Positions 4,401-18,953 of a DNA stretch of 31,513 bases are shown piece by piece. The notes beneath the pieces were generated by a model that made no database searches, was not told the DNA's origin, and was given only the letters and a program-made list of their open reading frames with translations. Made by a program: the position numbers and the translations under genes. Each line of letters starts with the position of its first letter. The first letter of the stretch is position 1. The DNA comes from Flavobacterium psychrophilum (GTDB taxonomy: Bacteria > Bacteroidota > Bacteroidia > Flavobacteriales > Flavobacteriaceae): positions 1 to 31,513 of the forward strand of contig DZCQ01000028.1 in the NCBI GenBank assembly GCA_022730285.1, given 5' to 3'.

Positions 4401-5036
4401 ATGAGTGATTTTTATAATTCTATACTGATAAAAAATAGAAAATGGGTAGAAGATCAATTAGAATTAGATCCTCATTATTTTGATAATTTATCCGAAGGTC
4501 AAAATCCAGATTTACTTTGGATAGGCTGTTCTGATAGTAGAGTTCCTGCTAATGAAATTATAGGAGCAAAACCAGGTGAAGTTTTTGTGCATAGAAATAT
4601 TGCTAATATGGTAATTCATACCGATATGAATATGCTTAGTGTATTAGATTATGCTGTAAATGTGCTAAAAGTGAAGCACATTTTAGTTTGTGGACATTAT
4701 GGTTGTGGTGGTGTAAAGGCAGCAATGTCTAACGAATCGGTTGGTATTATTGATAACTGGATACGACACATAAAAGATATATATAGATTGCATAAATCTG
4801 AATTAGATGCTATGAAAAACGAAAAAGAGCGTTTTAATCGGTTTGTGGAAGTAAATATTATCGAGCAAGTATCAGATTTGGCAAAAACTTCAATTGTACA
4901 AACTGCTTGGCAAAATGGACAGAAATTAACATTACACGGTTGGGTTTATGGCTTAAATTCAGGATTTGTAACAGATTTGGGAGTTAATTATTCTTCTAAC
5001 GATGATTTAGATGATATGTATCAGCTAAATATTTAA
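4401..5036 (+). CDS. Beta-class carbonic anhydrase
   Basis: Zinc enzyme interconverting CO2 and bicarbonate. The 211-residue protein has the full beta-class metal site: Cys43, Asp45 and Arg47 in CSDSRV, then His99 and Cys102 in CGHYGCGG. The Asp-Arg dyad next to the first Cys is intact, so it should be active. The N-terminus (YNSILIKNRKWVEDQL) is like that of the E. coli Can/YadF group, and the length fits. No signal peptide, so cytoplasmic. It stands alone between yebC and the DedA gene; one copy of a 28-base repeat sits in its upstream region and a variant -7 element (TAATTTTA, 4373-4380) lies 20 bases before the ATG. Confidence 0.95.
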   Translation: MSDFYNSILIKNRKWVEDQLELDPHYFDNLSEGQNPDLLWIGCSDSRVPANEIIGAKPGEVFVHRNIANMVIHTDMNMLSVLDYAVNVLKVKHILVCGHYGCGGVKAAMSNESVGIIDNWIRHIKDIYRLHKSELDAMKNEKERFNRFVEVNIIEQVSDLAKTSIVQTAWQNGQKLTLHGWVYGLNSGFVTDLGVNYSSNDDLDDMYQLNI

Positions 5037-9002: not shown

Positions 9003-9572
9003 ATGGAAATTTTAGAATTAATTAAACAACCTTGGGCATGGTATGTTGCAGGTCCTTTAGTTGGGTTAACTGTCCCAGCTTTGCTAATACTTGGAAACAA
9101 ATCTTTTGGTATTAGTGGTACGCTTCGTCATGCATGTGCTATTGTAGCTCCTGCAAATATTCCTTTCTTTAAATATGATTGGAAAAAAGAGATTTGGAAC
9201 TTGGTTTTTGTTTTGGGGATTTTAATAGGTGGTTTTATTGCTTTTCATCTTCTTTCAGATCCAAATCCAATTGTGATTAATGAAAATTTAAAAACAAGTT
9301 TGGCAACTTATGGAGTAACAGATATCAATGGAATGTTGCCAGAGCAAATATTCTCTTGGGGTGAATTATTTACTGTTCGTGGTATTATAATGCTGGCTTT
9401 GGGGGGATTTTTAGTAGGATTTGGCTCTAGATATGCAGGTGGATGTACTAGTGGTCATGCCATTTCTGGTATCTCTAATCTTCAAATGGCTTCGGTTATT
9501 GCGACTTGTTGTTTTTTTATAGGTGGCTTAATCATGGCAAACTTAATTTTACCATATATACTTTCACTTTAA
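9003..9572 (+). CDS. YeeE/YedE family transporter, first half
   Basis: A 189-residue membrane protein of the YeeE/YedE (DUF395) family, whose best-known member, TsuA, imports thiosulfate. It has the family's conserved motif GSRYAGGCTSGHAISG (141-156) with Cys148, and a second cysteine in RHACAIV (Cys45); such cysteines pass the sulfur compound through the membrane in TsuA. Four to five hydrophobic segments are visible (about 15-35, 65-83, 126-145, 160-186). Full-length YeeE/YedE proteins are about twice as long; here the other half is the next gene, 12 bases on. With TsdA and a SoxB-like enzyme downstream, movement of thiosulfate or another reduced sulfur species is the likely job. First gene of the block. 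Confidence 0.88.
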   Translation: MEILELIKQPWAWYVAGPLVGLTVPALLILGNKSFGISGTLRHACAIVAPANIPFFKYDWKKEIWNLVFVLGILIGGFIAFHLLSDPNPIVINENLKTSLATYGVTDINGMLPEQIFSWGELFTVRGIIMLALGGFLVGFGSRYAGGCTSGHAISGISNLQMASVIATCCFFIGGLIMANLILPYILSL

Positions 9573-9584
9573 ATAATAAATTTT

Positions 9585-10079
9585 ATGAGTATTCAAAATA
9601 ATAATGATATAGATAAACGTCTGCTAGATACTGGTTGCGTAAATGAGAGCCATTTGCAACACAAATGGTATTCTAACTTTAAGTATCTTTTAGTAGGGCT
9701 TGTTTTTGGTGTGGTGTTTGTTAAAGCTGAAATAGTTAGCTGGTATAGAATACAAGAAATGTTTCGTTTTGAGTCTTTCCATATGTATGGTGTAATTGGA
9801 AGCGCTGTTGCGGTAGGTATTGTTTCTGTTTTATTGATTAAGAAATATAATATTAAAACAATTTATGGCGAAAAAATAGAATTTCATGATAAAACTTTTA
9901 ATAAAGGTCAAATTTATGGAGGACTTTTATTTGGTTTTGGTTGGGCAATTACGGGAGCATGTCCAGGCCCTATATATGCTCAAATTGGTACAGGAGCTAC
10001 GGTAATGATTGTTGCTTTGTTTTTTGCGCTTCTTGGTACTTGGATTTATGGATATTTTAGAGACAAATTACCTCATTAA
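9585..10079 (+). CDS. YeeE/YedE family transporter, second half
   Basis: A 164-residue membrane protein that pairs with the preceding gene. The motif GFGWAITGACPGPIYAQIGTG (117-137, in pieces) carries Cys126 in GACPGP, the counterpart of the GGCTSGH cysteine of the first half. It matches the group often labelled DUF6691, which nearly always follows a YeeE/YedE gene. About four membrane segments (34-48, 66-85, 111-132, 138-157) and a 30-residue hydrophilic N-terminus that contains a further Cys18. Split two-gene forms of this transporter are common in bacteria and often sit beside sulfur-processing genes. It ends five bases before the cytochrome gene, which implies co-transcription. Confidence 0.86.
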   Translation: MSIQNNNDIDKRLLDTGCVNESHLQHKWYSNFKYLLVGLVFGVVFVKAEIVSWYRIQEMFRFESFHMYGVIGSAVAVGIVSVLLIKKYNIKTIYGEKIEFHDKTFNKGQIYGGLLFGFGWAITGACPGPIYAQIGTGATVMIVALFFALLGTWIYGYFRDKLPH

Positions 10080-10084
10080 TATTT

Positions 10085-11179
10085 ATGAAAAATAATTCTA
10101 ATAAAATAAATGCTGCTATCAAAAAGGTTTTCTACATTTTTGTAGCAGCTGCTTTTCTTCTTGTAGCTATGTTTTTTGTTCTTGTTTTTGGTGCTGATAT
10201 TGATACATGGTACAATAATAAAAATATAGTAAATAAAGAAGTGGATTCTGTGTATGCTGTTGCAGCTAAAAAAGCGGAATTGCAAAAAGAGATGAAAAAC
10301 TTCTGGAAACCTGTGAGTATTGAGGACGAAAAAAATCCAAAATTAAAGGCTCAATTAGAGTATGGTAAAGAATTAATTGCACATACTTCTGTTTATCTAG
10401 GACCTAAAGGAAGTGTTAAGTCAATTTCTAATGGAATGAATTGTCAAAATTGCCATTTAGATGCAGGTACGAAACCATGGGGTAATAATTATGGCTCTGT
10501 TTATTCTACCTACCCAAAGATGCGTGCAAGAAGTGGAAAAGTGGAGGATTTATTTAAACGTATAAACGATTGTTTTGAGCGTAGTTTAAATGGTGTTGCA
10601 CTCAAACAGGAGGATAAAGAAATGCAAGCAATGATAGCTTATATTAATTATATTGGAAAAAATGTGCCTAAAGGAGAAGATGCATTGGCTTCTGGGGTTT
10701 TTGATTTAAAACTTTTAGATAGAGCAGCCTCTCCCGAAAAAGGGAAGCCTCTATATGACCAAAAATGTGCTAGTTGCCATAAAGTAGATGGTCTAGGCGT
10801 TATGGCTGCAGATGGTAAGGAATATACTTATCCACCACTTTGGGGGAAAAACTCTTACAACAGTGGAGCAGGTTTATTTAGAATTAGTCGTTTTGCTGGA
10901 TATATTAAATATAATATGCCATTAGGAGCGTCTTATGACAGTTCGCAGCTTACAGATGAGGAGTCTTGGGATATTGCGGCGTATGTAGAAAGTTTGCCTA
11001 GACCTGGTAAAGATTTAAGTCAAGATTGGCCTAATATTTCTAAAAAACCTTTTGATCATCCATTTGGACCTTTTGCGGATAAATTTTCTGAATTGCAGCA
11101 TAAATACGGACCTTTTGGACCTATAAAAAAAGCCAAAAAGAAAATGAAAGAGGCTGAGAAAAAAGCAAAAAAAGTATAA
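10085..11179 (+). CDS. tsdA: Dihaem cytochrome c, TsdA-type thiosulfate dehydrogenase
   Basis: TsdA couples two thiosulfates to tetrathionate, or the reverse, in the periplasm. The 364-residue protein has an N-terminal signal anchor (about 15-37), then two haem c domains: CQNCH (Cys120, Cys123, His124) and CASCH (Cys228, Cys231, His232). The diagnostic TsdA block YPKMRARSGKVEDLFKRIND-CFERSLNG supplies Cys163 as the distal ligand of haem 1, 39 residues after His124; Met278 in YNMPLG is placed to be the distal ligand of haem 2, 46 residues after His232. This His/Cys plus His/Met arrangement is that of characterised TsdA enzymes. The C-terminus is a Lys/Ala-rich tail (348-364) that I do not expect in the family. 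No partner cytochrome TsdB is beside it. Direction of catalysis cannot be told. Confidence 0.85.
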   Translation: MKNNSNKINAAIKKVFYIFVAAAFLLVAMFFVLVFGADIDTWYNNKNIVNKEVDSVYAVAAKKAELQKEMKNFWKPVSIEDEKNPKLKAQLEYGKELIAHTSVYLGPKGSVKSISNGMNCQNCHLDAGTKPWGNNYGSVYSTYPKMRARSGKVEDLFKRINDCFERSLNGVALKQEDKEMQAMIAYINYIGKNVPKGEDALASGVFDLKLLDRAASPEKGKPLYDQKCASCHKVDGLGVMAADGKEYTYPPLWGKNSYNSGAGLFRISRFAGYIKYNMPLGASYDSSQLTDEESWDIAAYVESLPRPGKDLSQDWPNISKKPFDHPFGPFADKFSELQHKYGPFGPIKKAKKKMKEAEKKAKKV

Positions 11180-11265
11180 TTATAAAAATAAAAATAAGTT
11201 ATTTTAATTTAGTTTATATAAAAATTACTAACTTGCATAACTTAATACTTAAAATAAAATAAAAA

Positions 11266-11697
11266 ATGAAACAATTCAGAATCTTTGTATTAGTTTTAAT
11301 TGGGTTATTTTCTATCACTTCTTTTGCACAAAAGAAAGCAAAAACACATAAAATTGTGTTTCAATTTACGAATGCGAATGATAGTTTACAATCCAAAGCA
11401 TTTGTGAAGCAATTAGAGAATTTGACTGATTACTGGCCAAAAGCTACATATGAGGTTGTTTTATATAATCAAGGTTTAGAATTAGTGATGAAAAAAAATC
11501 CTAAATTTTATTCTAAACTAAAGAACTTAAAAGAAAACAGAGGTGTGAAATTTGTAGTTTGTGAAAATACTTTGAAAAATCGTAAAATAGAAAAAAGCAC
11601 TCTTTTAGAAGATTTATTAGAATATGTTCCTGCTGGGATAGCTGAAATTGTTGAAAAGCAAGAAGCTGGTTGGAATTATATTAAAGGAGGGTTTTAA
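11266..11697 (+). CDS. Exported DsrE-like protein
   Basis: A 143-residue protein with a clear signal peptide (residues 1-21, cleavage after SFA). The mature part looks like the DsrE/DsrF-like fold: KIVFQFTNANDS at the start, VVLYNQGLELV (64-74) in the middle, and GVKFVVCENTL (93-103) holding the single cysteine, Cys99, where DsrE-type sulfur carriers bear their persulfide; the end YVPAGIAEIVEKQEAGWNYI is also typical of exported members. In dissimilatory sulfur metabolism, DsrE-like proteins relay sulfane sulfur, mostly in the cytoplasm; an exported form next to TsdA would work in the periplasm. It lies 86 bases after tsdA. Assignment to the family is by motif reading only. Confidence 0.75.
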   Translation: MKQFRIFVLVLIGLFSITSFAQKKAKTHKIVFQFTNANDSLQSKAFVKQLENLTDYWPKATYEVVLYNQGLELVMKKNPKFYSKLKNLKENRGVKFVVCENTLKNRKIEKSTLLEDLLEYVPAGIAEIVEKQEAGWNYIKGGF

Positions 11698-11712
11698 TTT
11701 TTTTAGTTACAT

Positions 11713-11751
11713 AATAATAACTCACAACTTTTTATGTTGGGAGTTATTATT
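11713..11751 (+). other. RNA hairpin between the DsrE-like gene and the next gene
   Basis: An 11-base perfect stem (11713-11723 with 11741-11751) extended by CAAC/GTTG, closing on a seven-base T-rich loop. It starts 16 bases after the stop codon. No T-run follows, so it is more likely to be an attenuator or an mRNA-stabilising hairpin within the block than a full terminator. Confidence 0.45.
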
Positions 11752-11770
11752 CATAATATAATAAATATAA

Positions 11771-12619
11771 TTGATAAAATTTATAGCTAATACGTTTGAT
11801 TATTGCGAAAATTATTGGGAAAGTAAACAAAATTCTAGAAATTTAAGTTATATTTTAGTTATTGTTTTTTTGCTTACAATAATTATTGGAGGACTTAATA
11901 ATTTTAACTTACTGCCTAAGTTTTTCTTAATTGCAGATGTGAAATTTACAGATTCCATTATGTTTAGTTTTAATTTTTTGTTGTTTTTTGAAATGATTGG
12001 TCTAGTTTTTGCTATTCCACAATCTATATCCAATTCAATCGCAAAACAATTTCAAATTATGAGTCTTATTTTTTTAAGGACATCTTTTGAAGAATTATCT
12101 CACATCTCTATAGATGTTCCATTTGTTAAACAGTTCGAAATTATTACTGAAATGGCTGTTGATGCTGTTGCGTCTTTAATTATATTTTTTCTAATTTATT
12201 TATTTTATAAGATGCAAAAACATCGAAAAATAAACGATGAAACGGAACTTCTAAAATTTAATCAACTTAAAAAAGTTATTGCTGTAGCAGTTTTATTTTG
12301 CTTATTGTTTTATGTTTTTGTAGATGTTTCTAATTTTCTAGAAACAGGGCTATATAAACCTTCTTATCATTTGTTTTTCCTTATTTTAATCTTTGCGGAT
12401 ATGCTTTTAATGCTTGCTGCTTTCCGTTATGTTATAGAATATGCTAATATATTTAGATATTCTAGTTTTGTACTTATCACTATATTTATTAGAATTGCAC
12501 TTATGGCTCCCATTTATTACAATGTTATTATTGGAATTGCAACTGTATTATTCGGTATTGGAGTAACTTACACACACAATTTGTTTTTTTATAAAAAGCA
12601 AAATACAATTAAATATTAA
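11771..12619 (+). CDS. Uncharacterised polytopic membrane protein
   Basis: I do not recognise a family. The 282-residue protein is hydrophobic throughout, with six to eight likely membrane helices (about 25-43, 62-83, 94-105, 128-147, 168-188, 199-219, 231-248, 251-268). The N-terminus is hydrophilic (YCENYWESKQNSRN) and there is a charged cytoplasmic-type loop at 147-168. It has only two cysteines (12 and 177) and no haem, Fe-S or nucleotide-binding motif. The start must be the TTG at 11771, because an in-frame stop (TAA) lies immediately before it and the next ATG would cut off the first helix. It sits in the middle of the sulfur block, 73 bases after the DsrE-like gene, behind a hairpin. 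Confidence 0.7.
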   Translation: MIKFIANTFDYCENYWESKQNSRNLSYILVIVFLLTIIIGGLNNFNLLPKFFLIADVKFTDSIMFSFNFLLFFEMIGLVFAIPQSISNSIAKQFQIMSLIFLRTSFEELSHISIDVPFVKQFEIITEMAVDAVASLIIFFLIYLFYKMQKHRKINDETELLKFNQLKKVIAVAVLFCLLFYVFVDVSNFLETGLYKPSYHLFFLILIFADMLLMLAAFRYVIEYANIFRYSSFVLITIFIRIALMAPIYYNVIIGIATVLFGIGVTYTHNLFFYKKQNTIKY

Positions 12620-12703
12620 TATTTTTTTAATCACAAAATGGCATTATTTACCTTAAATAAAAACATACATACTTTAAATTAACAAACCTAAAAATTATTA
12701 ATC

Positions 12704-13600
12704 ATGAAAATTTTACAAATTATAATCTTCTTTTTATTCCTTAATACAGGATATTCTCAAAACATATCTCCCTATATATTAGGAGTAGAATCTACCGAAT
12801 CTCCAGAAAGTTTAATTAAAACTGTTCGGATGAATTTAGAAAAGAATGCAATTAATGTGGTTGGAGAATATAGCCCTGCAAATGATAAAAATAGAACTGT
12901 ACTAGTAATTAGTTCCACTGAACTTGATAATTCAGTAAAAAAGATTGGAGGGTTAGCGGCTTTCGCTTCTGTTTTAAAAGTTGCTTTAACAACCGATGGC
13001 ACTATTACAAAAGTTAGTTATACAAATCCAACTTACTGGGGATATGCTTATTACAGATTTGACTTTGATAAAGTTAGTGCTAATTTTATGCAACTAAAAA
13101 AACATCTTGAAAACGCTATGAAAGAATCAGGGACTTTTATCGGAAAAAGTTTTGGTTCTAAAAAAGGTTTATCAACGAAAGATTTACAAAAATACCACTA
13201 TATGATTGGAATGCCTTATTTTGATGATACAGTAGAACTTGGAAGTTTTAGTAATCATGCTACAGCAGTGTCGAAAATAGATGCAAATATTAAAAAAGGA
13301 ATTCCAGGTGTCAAATTAGTTTTCAAAAAAACAATACCAGGTAAAAATGCTACTTTGTATGGTTTTGCACTTTCTAGTACAAATGGAGAATCTAAATTTT
13401 TACCTATAATTGATACATCATTACCAAAGCATACTGCTTTCTTACCTTATGAAGTTTTAGTTGATGGCGATAAAGTAGTCATGTTGCATGGTAGATTTCG
13501 TTTCGCAATTTCTTTTCCAGATTTAACGATGGGTAAATTTTCTAAAATTATGTCCACACCTGGTGATGTCGAAAAATTATTGCAACAGGTAGTCAAATAA
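12704..13600 (+). CDS. Exported protein of unknown function in the sulfur block
   Basis: A 298-residue protein with a signal peptide (1-19, cleavage near GYSQ) and no lipobox. The mature part seems to have two similar-sized halves: 25-165 and 166-298. The ends TFLPYEVLVDGDKVVMLHGRFRFAISFPDL (in part, 244-273) and the N-terminal pattern SPESLIKTVRMNLEKNAINVVGE are reminiscent of DUF302-type domains, but this is a weak impression and I would not annotate it so without a profile search. No cysteine at all in the mature protein, so it is not a sulfur carrier of the persulfide type and does not bind haem covalently. It lies between the membrane protein and the FadL-type channel. Confidence 0.7.
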   Translation: MKILQIIIFFLFLNTGYSQNISPYILGVESTESPESLIKTVRMNLEKNAINVVGEYSPANDKNRTVLVISSTELDNSVKKIGGLAAFASVLKVALTTDGTITKVSYTNPTYWGYAYYRFDFDKVSANFMQLKKHLENAMKESGTFIGKSFGSKKGLSTKDLQKYHYMIGMPYFDDTVELGSFSNHATAVSKIDANIKKGIPGVKLVFKKTIPGKNATLYGFALSSTNGESKFLPIIDTSLPKHTAFLPYEVLVDGDKVVMLHGRFRFAISFPDLTMGKFSKIMSTPGDVEKLLQQVVK

Positions 13601-13695
13601 ATAAAAAATTCAATTTAAAAATATATCAGTAGAAATAGTGGACTTGATTTACTGGTTATTAACAAAAAGTCCAAAAAATAAATTAACAATCAAAT

Positions 13696-14976
13696 ATGAA
13701 AAAGAAATTAACAATTTTCGTAGCATTAGTGACAATAAATGTTACTTTTGCACAATCAGGTCATCTTATGCAAGGAGTGGGTGCCGTAAACATGTCAATG
13801 GGTGGTGCATCAACTGCACAGCCATTAGATATTAGTGGAGCACTTGCCTGGAATCCAGCAGCTATTTCTGTTTTTGAAGATAAAATAATATCTGTAAATG
13901 CAGGTTTATTTATGGCAAATCCAGAACTTTCTTCTAAGGTGCCTTTTGGTGGTGGTATTAGTGGTACTTCTACCGATGTTAAAAAAAATTCAATTATGCC
14001 AGCAATTGCTTTTGTTTACGGAAAAAAAGATAGCAAACATACTTTTGGTATTTCAGCATTTGGAGTAAGTGGTTTTGGGGTAGATTTCCCTGAGAGTACT
14101 ACAAATCCTATTAATTTTCCTCAAGCAATGGGTGGTTTTGGAAATCTAACTTCTAATTATATTATGTTGCAAACGGGAATATCGTATGCTTACAAAGTTT
14201 CTAAAACAGTTTCTATTGGTCTTTCGCCAAACTTTAATTTTGCAACATTAGAGTTAAAACCAAACCCAACTGCAAACCCAACTATGGCTGGTTATCCTTC
14301 TACAAACAATGCTACAGCAACTGGTTTTGGAGGTCAAATAGGTATCTTTTTTCAAAACGAGCAAGGCTTTAAATTAGGTGCTAGTTATAAAACAGAACAA
14401 AAATTTTCTGATTTTAAATTTCAAAATACTTACTTAGATAATACAACATCTGAAAATTCTTTCAAAATGAATTTTCCAGCAATTTTCTCTGCGGGTATTG
14501 GTTATTCAACTAGTAAATTCGATTTAGCTTTTGATTTTAGAAATGTAGAGTATTCTGGAACAGAAGGATTTAATGAGTATGGATGGAACCCTACTGGATC
14601 TGTAAAAGGATTTGGTTGGAAAGATATGCAAATTTTATCTATGGGTATTCAGTACAAAGGGGTTAAAAAATTACCAATTCGTTTAGGATATACATTTAAT
14701 ACAAATCCAATTAAAGACGAACTTGCATTTTTCTCTACATCAGCAACTGCAGTAATTCAAAATGCCTACCAATTAGGTTTAGGATATGAATTTTCTGACA
14801 AAATTACTATTAATGGAGTTTATCATATGGCTAAAAGTGACGGAAGTACTGAAGGTCCATTGTATAACCCAATGTTGGCTAGTGGTTCAAATCCTTTAGG
14901 AGCTATACCTGGTAGCCAAGTTTCTTACAAAATGGACACTAGCATGGTTATGCTAGGTATATCATATAAACTATAA
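13696..14976 (+). CDS. FadL/OmpP1/TodX-type outer membrane channel
   Basis: A 426-residue outer membrane beta-barrel of the FadL family, which moves hydrophobic substrates through a lateral opening in the barrel wall. Signal peptide 1-19 (cleavage after TFA). The mature N-terminus SGHLMQGVGAVNMSMGGAST and the NPAA motif near residue 53 are the plug (hatch) signatures of the family, followed by alternating amphipathic strands and a C-terminal strand ending MVMLGISYKL. The usual substrates are long-chain fatty acids or aromatics; in this setting a sulfur compound such as polysulfide or S8 is conceivable but unproven. Starts at the ATG at 13696; a 65-residue reading frame overlapping its start in another frame is a shadow. 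Only 19 bases separate it from the SoxB-like gene. Confidence 0.9.
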   Translation: MKKKLTIFVALVTINVTFAQSGHLMQGVGAVNMSMGGASTAQPLDISGALAWNPAAISVFEDKIISVNAGLFMANPELSSKVPFGGGISGTSTDVKKNSIMPAIAFVYGKKDSKHTFGISAFGVSGFGVDFPESTTNPINFPQAMGGFGNLTSNYIMLQTGISYAYKVSKTVSIGLSPNFNFATLELKPNPTANPTMAGYPSTNNATATGFGGQIGIFFQNEQGFKLGASYKTEQKFSDFKFQNTYLDNTTSENSFKMNFPAIFSAGIGYSTSKFDLAFDFRNVEYSGTEGFNEYGWNPTGSVKGFGWKDMQILSMGIQYKGVKKLPIRLGYTFNTNPIKDELAFFSTSATAVIQNAYQLGLGYEFSDKITINGVYHMAKSDGSTEGPLYNPMLASGSNPLGAIPGSQVSYKMDTSMVMLGISYKL

Positions 14977-14995
14977 CACAAATAATTAATTAAAA

Positions 14996-16708
14996 ATGGA
15001 ATCTAGTAAAAACCGTAGAAATTTTATCAAATCAATTGGTACATTAGGTATAGGTGCTACTGTATTAGCTCCTTTATCTGGATTAGCAAACAACAATAAT
15101 TCTTTTGATGAAAATGAAAAAATAACAGATAATGCTGTCCAAGATTTAAGCTTACCTGTTACAATCTCCATCCTTCAAACAACCGATGTGCATTGCCAAA
15201 TTTATCCTCACGATGAATTATTTTGGGAAAATGATAAAGCTGTTTTTCGTAAGGCAGGAGGATATGCTCACATGGCTACGATGCTTAAAGATTTGAAAAA
15301 GAAAAACCCAAACACTTATGTTATTGATACTGGAGACATGTTTCAAGGGAGTGAATTGAGTGTTAAAACTACTGGTGAAGCTTTTGTTCCAATTTTAGAT
15401 TCTTTAAACTATGATTTGTATTTGCCTGGTAACTGGGAGGTTATTTATGGTAAAAAGAAAATGCAAACTCTTTTGGGTGCTTTAGACGCTCCAAAAATTT
15501 GTACCAATATGTACCATGATTTAGGTGATGGAAAGCGTGGAGAACTTATTTTTCAACCCTATCAGGTTTGGAATGTGGCAGGTACAAAAATTGGTTTCTT
15601 AGGATATACAGATCCTTTAGTGCCAATCAGACAAAGTCCTGTTTATAGCAAAGGGATTCTTTATACAAAACCTGAAGAAAACTTAGCTCATTATGTAGAT
15701 GTTTTAAGAAATCAGGAGCAATGTAGTTATGTACTTCTTACTGCTCACCTTGGTTTATCGCAACAAATTGCATTGGCTAATATGCCAGAGTGTGAAGGAG
15801 TTGATTATATCTTAGGTGGCGATACGCACGAAAGAGTTCGTAAACCTATTGTTTGTAAATATTCTAAAGTAGTAGAACCTGGTGCATTTGGTTCTTTTAT
15901 CGGAAAATTAGATTTAACGGTTCAAAACGGAAAAGTTATTGCGGATAAATATGAATTATTAGAAGTTAATTCCCCTCAAATAAAACCAGATTTGGCTGTA
16001 CAAAAATTACTAAACGAAAAAGAAGCTGTATATCAAAAAAATATAAACGAAATTGTAGGATATAGTACTATTCCATTGTATCGTTATTTTGTGGTAGAAA
16101 ACCCTATTGATACCATGATTCTTAATGCTTTAAACTGGAAATTTCCAGAGGTAGATATTAACTTATCAAACGGATTTAGATTCTGTCCGCCACTAGCTAC
16201 AAAAGATAAAACGGGAAATATTGCAATAACTAACGGTTTTATTTATGATATGTTACCTGTAGATAGCACTGTAAGAACCGCAAAAGTTACTGGAAAGCAA
16301 CTTAAAAATTGGTTAGAAAAAGAACTCAACAATGTTTTTGCTAAAGATGCTTCAAAAAGATTTGGAGGTTGGGTTGTAAAATTTAAAGGAATGAAAGTTA
16401 AATTTAAAGCTTTTGCCCCAGATGGAGAAAGAGTACAAGAAGTAACTGTGAAAGGTGTACCAATGCAAGATGATACTCTATATAGCGTAATGGCATGCGA
16501 GCGTGATGGAGATCCTGTGGATATGCTTTGTAGAATGAAAGGTGTTGTAGATGCAAAAAACACAACAGCTACACTACATAGTGTAATGAAAGAGTATTTA
16601 AAACAAAATTCTCCTGTTACACCAACACCACAAAAAAATGCAATTATTTTAGATGCTCCAGAAACACTATTAACACAAGTTACAGGTGTAGATTATACAT
16701 TTAGATAA
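14996..16708 (+). CDS. SoxB-like thiosulfohydrolase / metallophosphoesterase family, Tat-exported
   Basis: A 570-residue exported dimetal hydrolase of the 5'-nucleotidase/SoxB superfamily. The N-terminus NRRNFIKS followed by a hydrophobic stretch (14-30) is a twin-arginine signal, as in SoxB. Metal-site motifs: TDVH (Asp64, His66), GD (Asp114), GNWEVIYG (Asn146, Trp147), TAHLG (His251), GGDTHER (Asp276, His278). In 5'-nucleotidases the third motif reads GNHE, with a catalytic His; SoxB proteins carry Trp there (GHWEFTYG as I recall), and so does this one. The length equals that of SoxB (about 565), and the C-terminal RFGGWVVKFKGMKVKF resembles the SoxB GG-M-V-GL segment. SoxB releases sulfate from SoxY-bound thiosulfate, yet no soxYZ or soxXA is nearby. 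Commonly it would be labelled bifunctional metallophosphatase/5'-nucleotidase. It is the last gene before a terminator. Confidence 0.75.
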   Translation: MESSKNRRNFIKSIGTLGIGATVLAPLSGLANNNNSFDENEKITDNAVQDLSLPVTISILQTTDVHCQIYPHDELFWENDKAVFRKAGGYAHMATMLKDLKKKNPNTYVIDTGDMFQGSELSVKTTGEAFVPILDSLNYDLYLPGNWEVIYGKKKMQTLLGALDAPKICTNMYHDLGDGKRGELIFQPYQVWNVAGTKIGFLGYTDPLVPIRQSPVYSKGILYTKPEENLAHYVDVLRNQEQCSYVLLTAHLGLSQQIALANMPECEGVDYILGGDTHERVRKPIVCKYSKVVEPGAFGSFIGKLDLTVQNGKVIADKYELLEVNSPQIKPDLAVQKLLNEKEAVYQKNINEIVGYSTIPLYRYFVVENPIDTMILNALNWKFPEVDINLSNGFRFCPPLATKDKTGNIAITNGFIYDMLPVDSTVRTAKVTGKQLKNWLEKELNNVFAKDASKRFGGWVVKFKGMKVKFKAFAPDGERVQEVTVKGVPMQDDTLYSVMACERDGDPVDMLCRMKGVVDAKNTTATLHSVMKEYLKQNSPVTPTPQKNAIILDAPETLLTQVTGVDYTFR

Positions 16709-16727
16709 TCTTTTTTTATAGAATTTT

Positions 16728-16757
16728 AAAGGCGAATGTTTAACATTCGCCTTTTTT
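16728..16757 (+). terminator. Intrinsic terminator after the SoxB-like gene
   Basis: A perfect inverted repeat with GC-containing arms (16728-16740 pairs with 16742-16754; core GGCGAATG/CATTCGCC) followed by a run of six T (16752-16757). It starts 19 bases after the stop codon and cleanly separates the eight-gene block from the porin unit. Confidence 0.9.
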
Positions 16758-16768
16758 GTACCATCAAG

Positions 16769-16827: not shown

Positions 16828-18252
16828 ATGAAAAATTATATATATCTAATTGTTTCTCTTGTTTTAAATTCTATCGCTGTTTTTTCTCAGCATCAAGAAA
16901 TTTCCGAAAATCCAACTATATGGAAAGAAAAGAATAAAGAAATAATTGATTCAACTTCAATCTTGAATGCCTTTGAGAAAGGTACATTTAATGGGCATTT
17001 TAGATATTTTAATATGCATACTATTAATCAAGGCGATTTAAAAGATTATTATGCGAATGCTATTGGTGGTGGAGTAAGATTTGAAACTGCTCCGTTTCAT
17101 CATTTTCAATTTGGAGTTAGTGGTTATTATGTTTATAATATTGGATCTTCTAACTTTTTAGAAAAAGACCCAATTACAAATCAATCTAACAGATATGAAG
17201 TTGCCTTATTTGATATTCAAAACCCAGCCGAAAAAACTAATTTAAGTAGATTAGAGGAACTTTACCTGAAATATAATTATAAAAAATCTTCCATAATAAT
17301 TGGAAAACAATTGCTAAACAACTCCTTCCTTAACCTCCAAGATGGTAGAATGAGACCATCTGAAGTAGAGGGTGTTTGGATCAATTTTAAAGAAATAAAA
17401 AACACTAAAGTAGATTTAGGCTACTTATATGCAATGTCTCCGAGAAGCACAATTAGATATTATCGAGTGGAAGAGTCTATTGGTATAAATCCTATGGGAG
17501 TTAATACTGATGGAACAAAATCAGATTATTTAAATAATTTAAAAAGTTCTGGAATATTTGTGTTTGGTGTTGAGAATGAGTCTTTAAAAAATCTTAAAAT
17601 TCTACTTTGGAATCAGTTTGTAGAAAACATTTTCAACACATTTTTGACTCAATTAGATTATAAATTACCGGTATCCAAAGAGTCAAATTTATTATTTGGT
17701 TTTCAAACAATATATCAATCTCCACTAAATAATGGTGGAAATATAGATCCACACAAAACCTATTTTGATAAAAATGCTACTGCCGAAACCTTTGGTGGTA
17801 AACTAGCATGGAAAAATAAACAGCTAGAAATAAGTACAAACTTTAATAGAATTACTGCCAAAGGACGTTACTTAATGCCTCGAGAGTGGGGGAGAGAACC
17901 TTTTTATACCTTTTTACCAAGAGAACGCAATGAAGGATATGGAGATGTTACTGCGTTTATGACAAAATTTAGTTACAATAATAAGAAAAAAACATTCAAA
18001 TCTTATCTTGGAGCTGGCTATTACAAAATGCCTGATGTAAAAGACTTTCGATTAAATAAGTACGGAATGCCATCTTACTACCAAACAAATTTTGATTTAA
18101 GCTATACTTTTTCAGGATTTTTAAGAGGATTTGATGCCCATTTTTTATATGTACATAAATTTCTTGATGGAGAAGTTTATAATAACAAAAGTTATATTTT
18201 CAATAAAGTAAATTTAAGTAATATTAACTTTATAATTAACTTTAATTTTTAA
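16828..18252 (+). CDS. OprD-like outer membrane porin
   Basis: A 474-residue outer membrane protein with a signal peptide (1-20, cleavage near VFSQ). The pattern FEKGTFNGHFRYFNM, then YANAIGGGVRFETAPFHHFQFGVSGYY (in pieces, residues about 50-105), RLEELYLKYNYKKSSIIIGKQ and the NLQDGRMRPSEVEGVWI stretch are those of the OprD/outer-membrane porin family, in which a GR(Q)-x-L and D-x-R-M-x-P-x-x-x-E-G constriction region is conserved. Such porins take up small anions, basic amino acids or other specific solutes. The C-terminal strand ends in NFNF, as expected for BAM recognition. It has its own promoter with the same operator as the sulfur block, and is followed five bases later by a DUF2490-type gene. 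Passage of thiosulfate or a related anion is plausible from context. Confidence 0.75.
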   Translation: MKNYIYLIVSLVLNSIAVFSQHQEISENPTIWKEKNKEIIDSTSILNAFEKGTFNGHFRYFNMHTINQGDLKDYYANAIGGGVRFETAPFHHFQFGVSGYYVYNIGSSNFLEKDPITNQSNRYEVALFDIQNPAEKTNLSRLEELYLKYNYKKSSIIIGKQLLNNSFLNLQDGRMRPSEVEGVWINFKEIKNTKVDLGYLYAMSPRSTIRYYRVEESIGINPMGVNTDGTKSDYLNNLKSSGIFVFGVENESLKNLKILLWNQFVENIFNTFLTQLDYKLPVSKESNLLFGFQTIYQSPLNNGGNIDPHKTYFDKNATAETFGGKLAWKNKQLEISTNFNRITAKGRYLMPREWGREPFYTFLPRERNEGYGDVTAFMTKFSYNNKKKTFKSYLGAGYYKMPDVKDFRLNKYGMPSYYQTNFDLSYTFSGFLRGFDAHFLYVHKFLDGEVYNNKSYIFNKVNLSNINFIINFNF

Positions 18253-18257
18253 TTTTT

Positions 18258-18953
18258 TTGAAAACCTATTTTCTGTTATTTTTTAGTTTTTCAGTAATTT
18301 CCCTTGTAAGTGCTCAAGAAACTCATAATAATGCATGGTTTAGATTAACTATAAATGCCTATTCTAAAAATAATATTGTAGCTGATGTGGAGCTTAATCA
18401 TAGAAGACAAAATGATTTTAACAAAAATAATCCGTTCGATAAAAATTTGATCATTGCAATAAGACCTTGGTTCTATTTAACTAAAAAAGAAAATTTCGCC
18501 ATTATTTTTTCGCCAATAGCTTATTTTTCTAATTACAAGATTATTCAAAAAGCAAGTGATTCTGGTATTTCTAGCAATGAATATAGGATAACATTTGGAG
18601 AAGAATATCAAAATAAATTAACAAAAAATGTTTCTATTTCAAGCCGAGCATTATTAGAGTATCGCTTATATGAAACAGTACCAAACGGATTGCGATTTCG
18701 AACAAGGATTGGTGCAAAATATGATTTTAATAAAAATATTAATACCACTATTGGAAATGAAATATTTTTAAATACAATTAATATTCCAAGTAATAAATAT
18801 ATTTTTGATCACAATAGAGTTTTTATAAATTTATCCTTACAAGGAGTAAAAAAGTTAAAAATTGATGTAGGCTATATTTATGCAAACAAATTGCCCAGAA
18901 ATGCCATTGATCATATAAACGAAAATAATTTTTATCTTAATTTTAAAATTTAA
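18258..18953 (+). CDS. DUF2490-type outer membrane protein
   Basis: A 231-residue protein with a signal peptide (1-19, cleavage after VSA) and alternating amphipathic strands throughout, ending NNFYLNFKI as an outer membrane barrel would. The blocks AWFRLTINAYSKNNIVADVELNHRRQ, YRITFGEEYQNKLTKNVSISSRALLEYRL (each in part) and LRFRTRIGAKYDF match the DUF2490 family, small barrels widespread in Bacteroidota with no known function. The start is the TTG at 18258, five bases after the porin stop; the signal peptide begins right there and no ATG precedes it. Almost certainly co-transcribed with the porin. It converges with purB across 24 bases, with no obvious terminator. Confidence 0.75.
   Translation: MKTYFLLFFSFSVISLVSAQETHNNAWFRLTINAYSKNNIVADVELNHRRQNDFNKNNPFDKNLIIAIRPWFYLTKKENFAIIFSPIAYFSNYKIIQKASDSGISSNEYRITFGEEYQNKLTKNVSISSRALLEYRLYETVPNGLRFRTRIGAKYDFNKNINTTIGNEIFLNTINIPSNKYIFDHNRVFINLSLQGVKKLKIDVGYIYANKLPRNAIDHINENNFYLNFKI

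Follow-up and report, generated by a model that had tools for sequence, protein, structure and literature searches.

A recurring Bacteroidota gene set with TsdA and a SoxB-like hydrolase as a candidate SoxYZ-independent system for thiosulfate/tetrathionate oxidation

The 31,513-nucleotide window analyzed here (positions 1 to 31,513 of contig DZCQ01000028.1, assembly GCA_022730285.1, Flavobacterium psychrophilum) carries between positions 9003 and 16708 eight plus-strand open reading frames (ORFs), which encode a split YeeE/YedE transporter, a TsdA-type cytochrome, an exported DsrE-family protein, a membrane protein, a further exported protein, a FadL-type channel and a SoxB-like hydrolase. We consider it fairly probable that this cluster is a thiosulfate/tetrathionate oxidation system working independently of the carrier SoxYZ, with the SoxB-like enzyme hydrolysing tetrathionate. 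From the gene content, the invariant residues, the recurring linkage and the absence of SoxY and SoxZ in relatives, we infer the individual reactions and their directions. ORF analysis, Pfam and NCBIfam bear out the eight genes and the families that an earlier note, made from the sequence alone, had named; the features, including those beyond the SoxB-like gene, are as follows.

9003..9572, plus strand: C-terminal half of YeeE/YedE (PmpA-like), membrane protein; end of the PF04143 profile, Cys45 and Cys148
9585..10079, plus strand: N-terminal half of YeeE/YedE (PmpB-like, DUF6691), membrane protein; PF04143 and PF20398, Cys126
10085..11179, plus strand: TsdA-type dihaem cytochrome c (thiosulfate dehydrogenase/tetrathionate reductase family); PF21342, PF13442 and a match to 4wqc
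11266..11697, plus strand: exported DsrE-family protein with one invariant Cys (Cys99); PF02635
11771..12619, plus strand: accessory membrane protein (282 aa) without a Pfam family
12704..13600, plus strand: accessory exported protein (298 aa), DUF302-type fold in a predicted model; no Pfam match
13696..14976, plus strand: accessory FadL/OmpP1-type outer-membrane channel; PF03349
14996..16708, plus strand: SoxB-like hydrolase with a twin-arginine start, from a separate Bacteroidota clade; metallophosphatase and 5'-nucleotidase C domains
16729..16758, plus strand: intrinsic terminator hairpin with a T-run; pattern match and fold
16828..18252, plus strand: OprD-family outer-membrane porin, core member of the set; PF03573, 45/62 loci
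18258..18953, plus strand: DUF2490 protein after the porin, of doubtful membership; PF10677, 4/80 loci by blastp and 2/84 by tblastn

A scan of species genomes with the SoxB-like protein confirmed 350 relatives, of which the best 80 were kept as loci. These are not independent (three species contribute two loci each), and their titles are all Bacteroidota, except for one metagenome-assembled genome titled Streptomyces griseus, which is probably mislabelled. Partners were counted by clustering of neighbouring ORFs and by searches with the window proteins and profiles, and counts out of 62 refer to the loci flanked by over 5 kb on each side (18 of the 80, with less than 5 kb on one side, were excluded). 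Near the SoxB-like gene, TsdA was found in 55/62 loci, the YeeE half in 49/62, the YedE half in 47/62, OprD in 45/62 and the exported DsrE in 42/62. All five of these core partners are present in 29 loci, four in 14, three in 7, two in 6, one in 4 and none in 2; at least four are thus present in 43/62. Further partners are an MBL-rhodanese (42/62; 41 cover at least 70% of the representative, 33 of these with at least 50% identity), a rhodanese (40/62), TauE (37/62), a Crp-type regulator (30/62) and an SQR-like protein (10/62). Flavobacterium petrolei, F. psychrolimnae and F. caseinilyticum have two copies each, one with MBL-rhodanese and rhodanese and the other, as in the window, without them in the fetched stretch.

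The gene order shuffles among loci and the membership recurs, so that the linkage, expected earlier as a conserved order, holds across Bacteroidota for membership only. The edge placed at the SoxB-like gene proved wrong, since the OprD porin beyond the terminator belongs to the conserved set and is a core partner. In turn, three proteins that had been counted as members are rare extras: FadL occurs in 6/80 loci (5 of them Flavobacterium), the 282-aa membrane protein in two by tblastn (L015 and L022, beside the SoxB-like gene) and in 3/80 by blastp, one of which is a 38% match, and the 298-aa DUF302-like protein was found in 0/80. No functional name for the membrane protein was seen among the 120 relatives listed. 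The proposal of one pathway gained from the recurring linkage and from the lack of SoxY and SoxZ in relatives, while its gene list had omitted OprD, and the likely downstream genes (MBL-rhodanese, rhodanese and TauE) are outside the window.

Two of the 55 TsdA matches are remnants, in copies that both look degraded. In F. limicola (L006:9462-9854) a 130-residue TsdA piece lies upstream of a full SoxB-like gene; in F. sinopsychrotolerans (L004:7767-9854) the same position is taken by a 695-residue ORF with YeeE and TsdA sequence, and no TsdA match at 1e-30 was obtained in that genome.

The association of the two enzymes is also visible at the level of whole genomes. In a sample of 296 Bacteroidota genomes, where the SoxB-like protein was counted above 500 bits and TsdA at 1e-30 against the alignment of the cluster's TsdA, 11 of the 14 genomes with the SoxB-like protein have this TsdA, versus 34/296 overall (Fisher p 2.6e-9). 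With four Flavobacterium genomes of the first scan removed, the count is 8/10 (p 2.6e-7). The distribution of the cluster is patchy: among 299 genomes sampled from the family of F. petrolei, 16 SoxB-like matches were found at 1e-100, and the cluster type is present only in the centre of the sample itself (1251 bits), the other 15 being a related SoxB-like protein (518-597 bits). Two short loci of this subfamily (L105 of genome G306 and L106 of genome G142) are near TlpA-like genes, and neither genome gave a TsdA match at 1e-30.

Moreover, the whole set is found on two Runella plasmids of 45-48 kb, pRUNSL04 of R. slithyformis and a plasmid of R. rosea. On pRUNSL04 (44.8 kb), TauE, two MBL proteins, thioredoxin, the TsdA-type cytochrome, DsrE, the SoxB-like protein, OprD, YeeE and DUF6691 are encoded together, and the R. 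rosea plasmid has nearly the same gene set. A Pontibacter plasmid carries a variant set with a 46% SoxB-like protein. On a plasmid of Hymenobacter sp. NBH84, TauE, rhodaneses, YeeE, DUF6691, a cytochrome, OprD and DsrE surround a 32% SoxB-like protein of another clade; thus, the same partners accompany two SoxB-like types. The Hymenobacter locus resembles the outcome of a hydrolase swap within the partner set. By contrast, the soxB of Ruegeria adjoins soxX, soxY, soxZ and soxA. Three distant SoxB-like proteins (about 27-28%; L114, L115, L122) are encoded on conjugative or mobilizable alphaproteobacterial plasmids, with rhodanese, TauE, DUF302, YeeE/YedE halves or sulfite oxidase genes as neighbours, and a plasmid of Sporosarcina psychrophila encodes a Bacillota SoxB-like protein with an active-site Asn-Trp near TauE and CcdA genes.

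Searches for SoxY, SoxZ, SoxA and TatC covered the genomes behind 40 of the 80 loci. SoxY was found in 0/40, Flavobacterium included, with a model that finds it in 34/296 genomes of the phylum sample; SoxZ was found in 0/40 and in 4/4 SoxY-positive controls. SoxA above the cut-off was likewise found in 0/40, versus 4/4 controls (SoxX, SoxCD and sulfite oxidases were not searched for), and the weak SoxA matches present in 34/40 reach at most 39.7 bits, versus 231.8-247.3 in the four controls. In the phylum sample, the 34 genomes with SoxY and the 14 with the SoxB-like protein do not overlap, a result that is weak alone, since only about 1.6 overlaps are expected by chance. As for soxXAYZ elsewhere in the genome, which had been named as the sign of an ordinary split system, these searches speak for the cluster-bearing relatives, the window's genome itself being outside the test. 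TatC is present in 40/40.

The best NCBIfam match of the SoxB-like protein is TIGR04486 (SoxB), and its best fold match is SoxB as well, with the SoxB/5'-nucleotidase fold present. The score is low, however: 252 bits for the window protein, and 252.6 and 255.2 for two relatives, versus 842.8 for Ruegeria SoxB and an equivalog cut-off of 550. In the tree the protein forms its own Bacteroidota clade, within which the window sequence groups with Flavobacterium. In the alignment, where some rows are one gene fetched twice (e.g., L093-L096), Trp147 is Trp in 98/98 clade rows and aligns with the Trp of 2wdc and the Cys of 4uwq; the nucleotidase-like rows, of which there are only four, carry His at this position. 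The His of the G-H-T-H motif, which we take to be a metal ligand, is replaced by Asp276 in 97/98 clade rows and kept in the other 18 rows, and Asn146 replaces a further His of the SoxB active site. The protein is thus like the 5'-nucleotidase/UshA family in its two-domain fold, in most active-site residues and in Asn146, and unlike it in Trp147 and Asp276. Compared with the classical Sox system (SoxXA, SoxYZ, SoxB and SoxCD), the SoxB fold and the active-site Trp are shared, and TsdA is a cytochrome of the SoxA family; the low model score, the Asp and Asn in place of His, and the 40/40 relatives without SoxY, SoxZ or SoxA over the cut-off set the cluster apart.

The TsdA of the window matches the solved thiosulfate dehydrogenase 4wqc (E 1.9e-43). 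It has two CxxCH motifs (Cys120/123 and Cys228/231) and Cys163, the axial Cys of haem 1, all invariant in the 68-69 rows with letters. The DsrE-family protein has Cys99 as its only Cys, invariant in 55/55 rows, and an N-terminal hydrophobic stretch was recognized in 53/53 matches by a crude hydrophobicity test. In the transporter, Cys148 of the YeeE half (60/60 rows) aligns with residue 293 of TsuA (6leo), and Cys126 of the YedE half (58/58 rows) aligns with residue 91; a third Cys, Cys45 of the C-terminal half, is invariant in 61/61 rows. The two half-proteins therefore match the halves (N and C) of TsuA and have the equivalents of Cys91 and Cys293, as in PmpAB and SoxT/TsuA (PMC11582611). 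They differ from PmpAB, as described there, in being longer (189 and 164 aa versus about 130), in the TsdA-SoxB cluster context and in the third Cys. Neither the 282-aa nor the 298-aa protein has a Pfam family above the cut-off. For the latter, an unknown exported protein in the earlier note, a predicted model of middling confidence (pLDDT 75.4) matches 1q9u (DUF302) and 1j3m (probability 1.00, TMt 0.75), which points to a possible DUF302-type fold; some of its relatives bear the source name DUF302.

In the proposed route, the OprD porin, and in the window also FadL, would pass sulfur compounds through the outer membrane, and TsdA would join two thiosulfates to tetrathionate and hand on the electrons. 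The SoxB-like enzyme, a presumed di-metal hydrolase exported by Tat, may then split off a terminal sulfonate as sulfate and leave sulfane sulfur, which the exported DsrE would take up via its single invariant Cys and the split YeeE/YedE pair would carry inward (alternatively, the pair would carry thiosulfate). In most relatives, rhodanese and MBL-rhodanese, a putative persulfide dioxygenase, would oxidise the sulfur to sulfite, and TauE would export the sulfite. The direction of TsdA, the substrate of the SoxB-like enzyme and the cargo of YeeE/YedE are what we infer here.

The closest precedent is Erythrobacter flavus 21-3, whose genome has no Sox complex (Zhang et al., PMC7608252). Deletion of its tsdA or soxB nearly abolishes zero-valent sulfur, tetrathionate rises without soxB, and the route proposed by its authors runs from TsdA to SoxB acting on tetrathionate and then to the MBL-type SdoA/SdoB (PMC7608252). 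In addition, SoxB is reported to act on trithionate, a small analogue of its substrate (PMC5336275). Considering the E. flavus mutants and this activity, we regard hydrolysis of tetrathionate as the most likely reaction of the SoxB-like enzyme. The window shares with E. flavus the TsdA and the SoxB-domain hydrolase, and the 40 relatives searched lack SoxY and SoxZ; the MBL-fold sulfur dioxygenase that follows in the thiosulfate-induced gene cluster of E. flavus has a possible counterpart in the MBL-rhodanese of 41-42/62 related loci. The differences are that E. flavus is an alphaproteobacterium, that the window has no match to an MBL-fold dioxygenase nearby, and that OprD, an exported DsrE and a split YeeE/YedE are not named for E. 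flavus in the available text of the paper (PMC7608252). The same TsdA/SoxB logic has been applied to sediment genomes (PMC12345210).

Several observations weigh against this route. Since Asp replaces a His of the metal site, the activity of SoxB may not be assumed for the SoxB-like enzyme. Purified classical SoxB alone does not turn over SoxYZ-bound substrates (PMC5336275). Two further SoxB-domain genes of E. flavus are dispensable, and its soxB mutant on plates still made a little zero-valent sulfur (PMC7608252). The residue before the haem-2 Met of TsdA is Asn in 69/70 rows, whereas the thiosulfate-oxidising TsdA of A. vinosum has Lys there (PMC5146829); as the Asn-Met at haem 2 is that of Campylobacter jejuni, the direction of TsdA is not fixed by sequence. 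Within the fetched stretches, L016 and L019 lack all five core partners, TsdA is missing from 7/62 loci and DsrE from 20/62, and ten representatives of the MBL-rhodanese downstream module give no match in the 31-kb window (tblastn, E 0.01).

Another reading gives DsrE the role of SoxYZ: TsdA would load thiosulfate on Cys99, and the SoxB-like enzyme would hydrolyse a protein-bound thiosulfonate. The single, invariant Cys99 and the N-terminal hydrophobic stretch suit a carrier of this kind, as does the absence of SoxYZ in the relatives searched. The distance to the SoxB-like gene is at most 400 bp for DsrE in 32/62 loci and for TsdA in 27/62, and four loci, three of Flavobacterium (L044, L050, L056) and one of Flavobacteriaceae (L065), keep DsrE adjoining the SoxB-like gene with TsdA missing. 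However, DsrE-family proteins are known mainly for sulfur transfer at later steps, and as DsrE was not found in 20/62 loci, it is not obligatory unless encoded elsewhere; we regard this reading as rather unlikely. Quite unlikely, too, is its wider form, a Sox system of Bacteroidota with its carrier swapped, in which DsrE would stand for SoxYZ, the SoxA-family TsdA would be the loader, the SoxB-like enzyme would act with its changed metal site (Asp and Asn for His), and plasmids would move the whole.

As a third possibility, TsdA would be a reductase and the cluster a means of reducing or detoxifying tetrathionate, with the other genes managing the thiosulfate and sulfane sulfur formed. The Lys/Asn/Met pattern at haem 2, found in 64/70 rows, is that of C. 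jejuni TsdA (Lys252, Asn254 and Met255), which favours tetrathionate reduction (PMC5146829). Nevertheless, the company of MBL-rhodanese (oxygen-using if it is a persulfide dioxygenase), TauE and, in 10/62 loci, the SQR-like protein fits oxidation, and the E. flavus precedent is oxidative (PMC7608252), which makes a reductive role improbable. There is a similarly small chance that other S-sulfonates, small organic thiosulfonates or nucleotides are the substrates of the SoxB-like enzyme, with the linkage reflecting general sulfane-sulfur management; Trp147 in place of the nucleotidase-type His and the frequency of TsdA as a companion (55/62 loci) argue against it. An ordinary split Sox system with soxXAYZ elsewhere in the window's genome is very improbable, as it finds no support in the relatives, where SoxY, SoxZ and SoxA over the cut-off are all 0/40, nor in the (by itself weak) non-overlap of SoxY and the SoxB-like protein in the phylum sample.

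What appears to be new is the cluster itself: it recurs in Bacteroidota, is partly plasmid-borne and encodes a SoxB-like protein of a separate clade whose metal site is altered. In the open-access literature searched, no description of it in Bacteroidota was found. The suggestion of an under-described pathway stands to that extent; a TsdA and SoxB route without a Sox complex is already published for E. flavus, whose authors also pointed out tsdA and soxB genomes in Bacteroidetes (PMC7608252). To that study the pathway idea yields some of its novelty, and from the recurring linkage it gains support. If the reading is right, some Bacteroidota (14/296 sampled carry the SoxB-like protein above 500 bits) oxidise thiosulfate or tetrathionate in this way, and the route would escape surveys that look for soxXAYZ or use the NCBI SoxB model. 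The annotation of the SoxB-like relatives is mixed, with 27 nucleotidase-type and 10 SoxB-type names among the 120 relatives listed. Also, its SoxB-type enzyme may be one that needs no SoxYZ, and the set-bearing 44.8-kb pRUNSL04 could be cured.

Within the window, the gaps between the eight genes are, in order, 12, 5, 86, 73, 84, 95 and 19 bp; a further 119 bp separate the SoxB-like gene from the OprD porin gene, and 5 bp separate the latter from the DUF2490 gene. The strong terminator after the SoxB-like gene was confirmed as a hairpin of -15.8 kcal/mol (fold of 16721-16765) followed by a T-run, although the consensus terminator scan does not list it. A second hairpin, of -15.1 kcal/mol and without a T-run, lies between the DsrE and membrane-protein genes (11698-11770), where the inverted repeat is possibly an attenuator or a regulator site. 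The eight adjoining plus-strand genes do form one block, as the earlier note had it; they may form a single transcript, although gaps of 86, 73, 84 and 95 bp separate the genes from TsdA to FadL and the internal hairpin lies among them. A promoter scan of the window was uninformative (59 found versus 57.6 expected). The window is Flavobacterium-like, both by the grouping of its SoxB-like protein and by its PurB, which is 74-82% identical to the 96 near-full-length PurB matches obtained from 101 genomes belonging to the genus of F. petrolei. In a check for an empty site between the DEAD helicase and purB, 30 genus-level loci had no DEAD helicase in the 1.5 kb flanking purB, and thus no inference on the insertion of the cluster is drawn from it. 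Finally, in four Flavobacterium loci (L003, L004, L008 and L010) a carbonic-anhydrase-like gene is close to the cluster, with 33-37% identity to the gene at 4401-5036 of the window.

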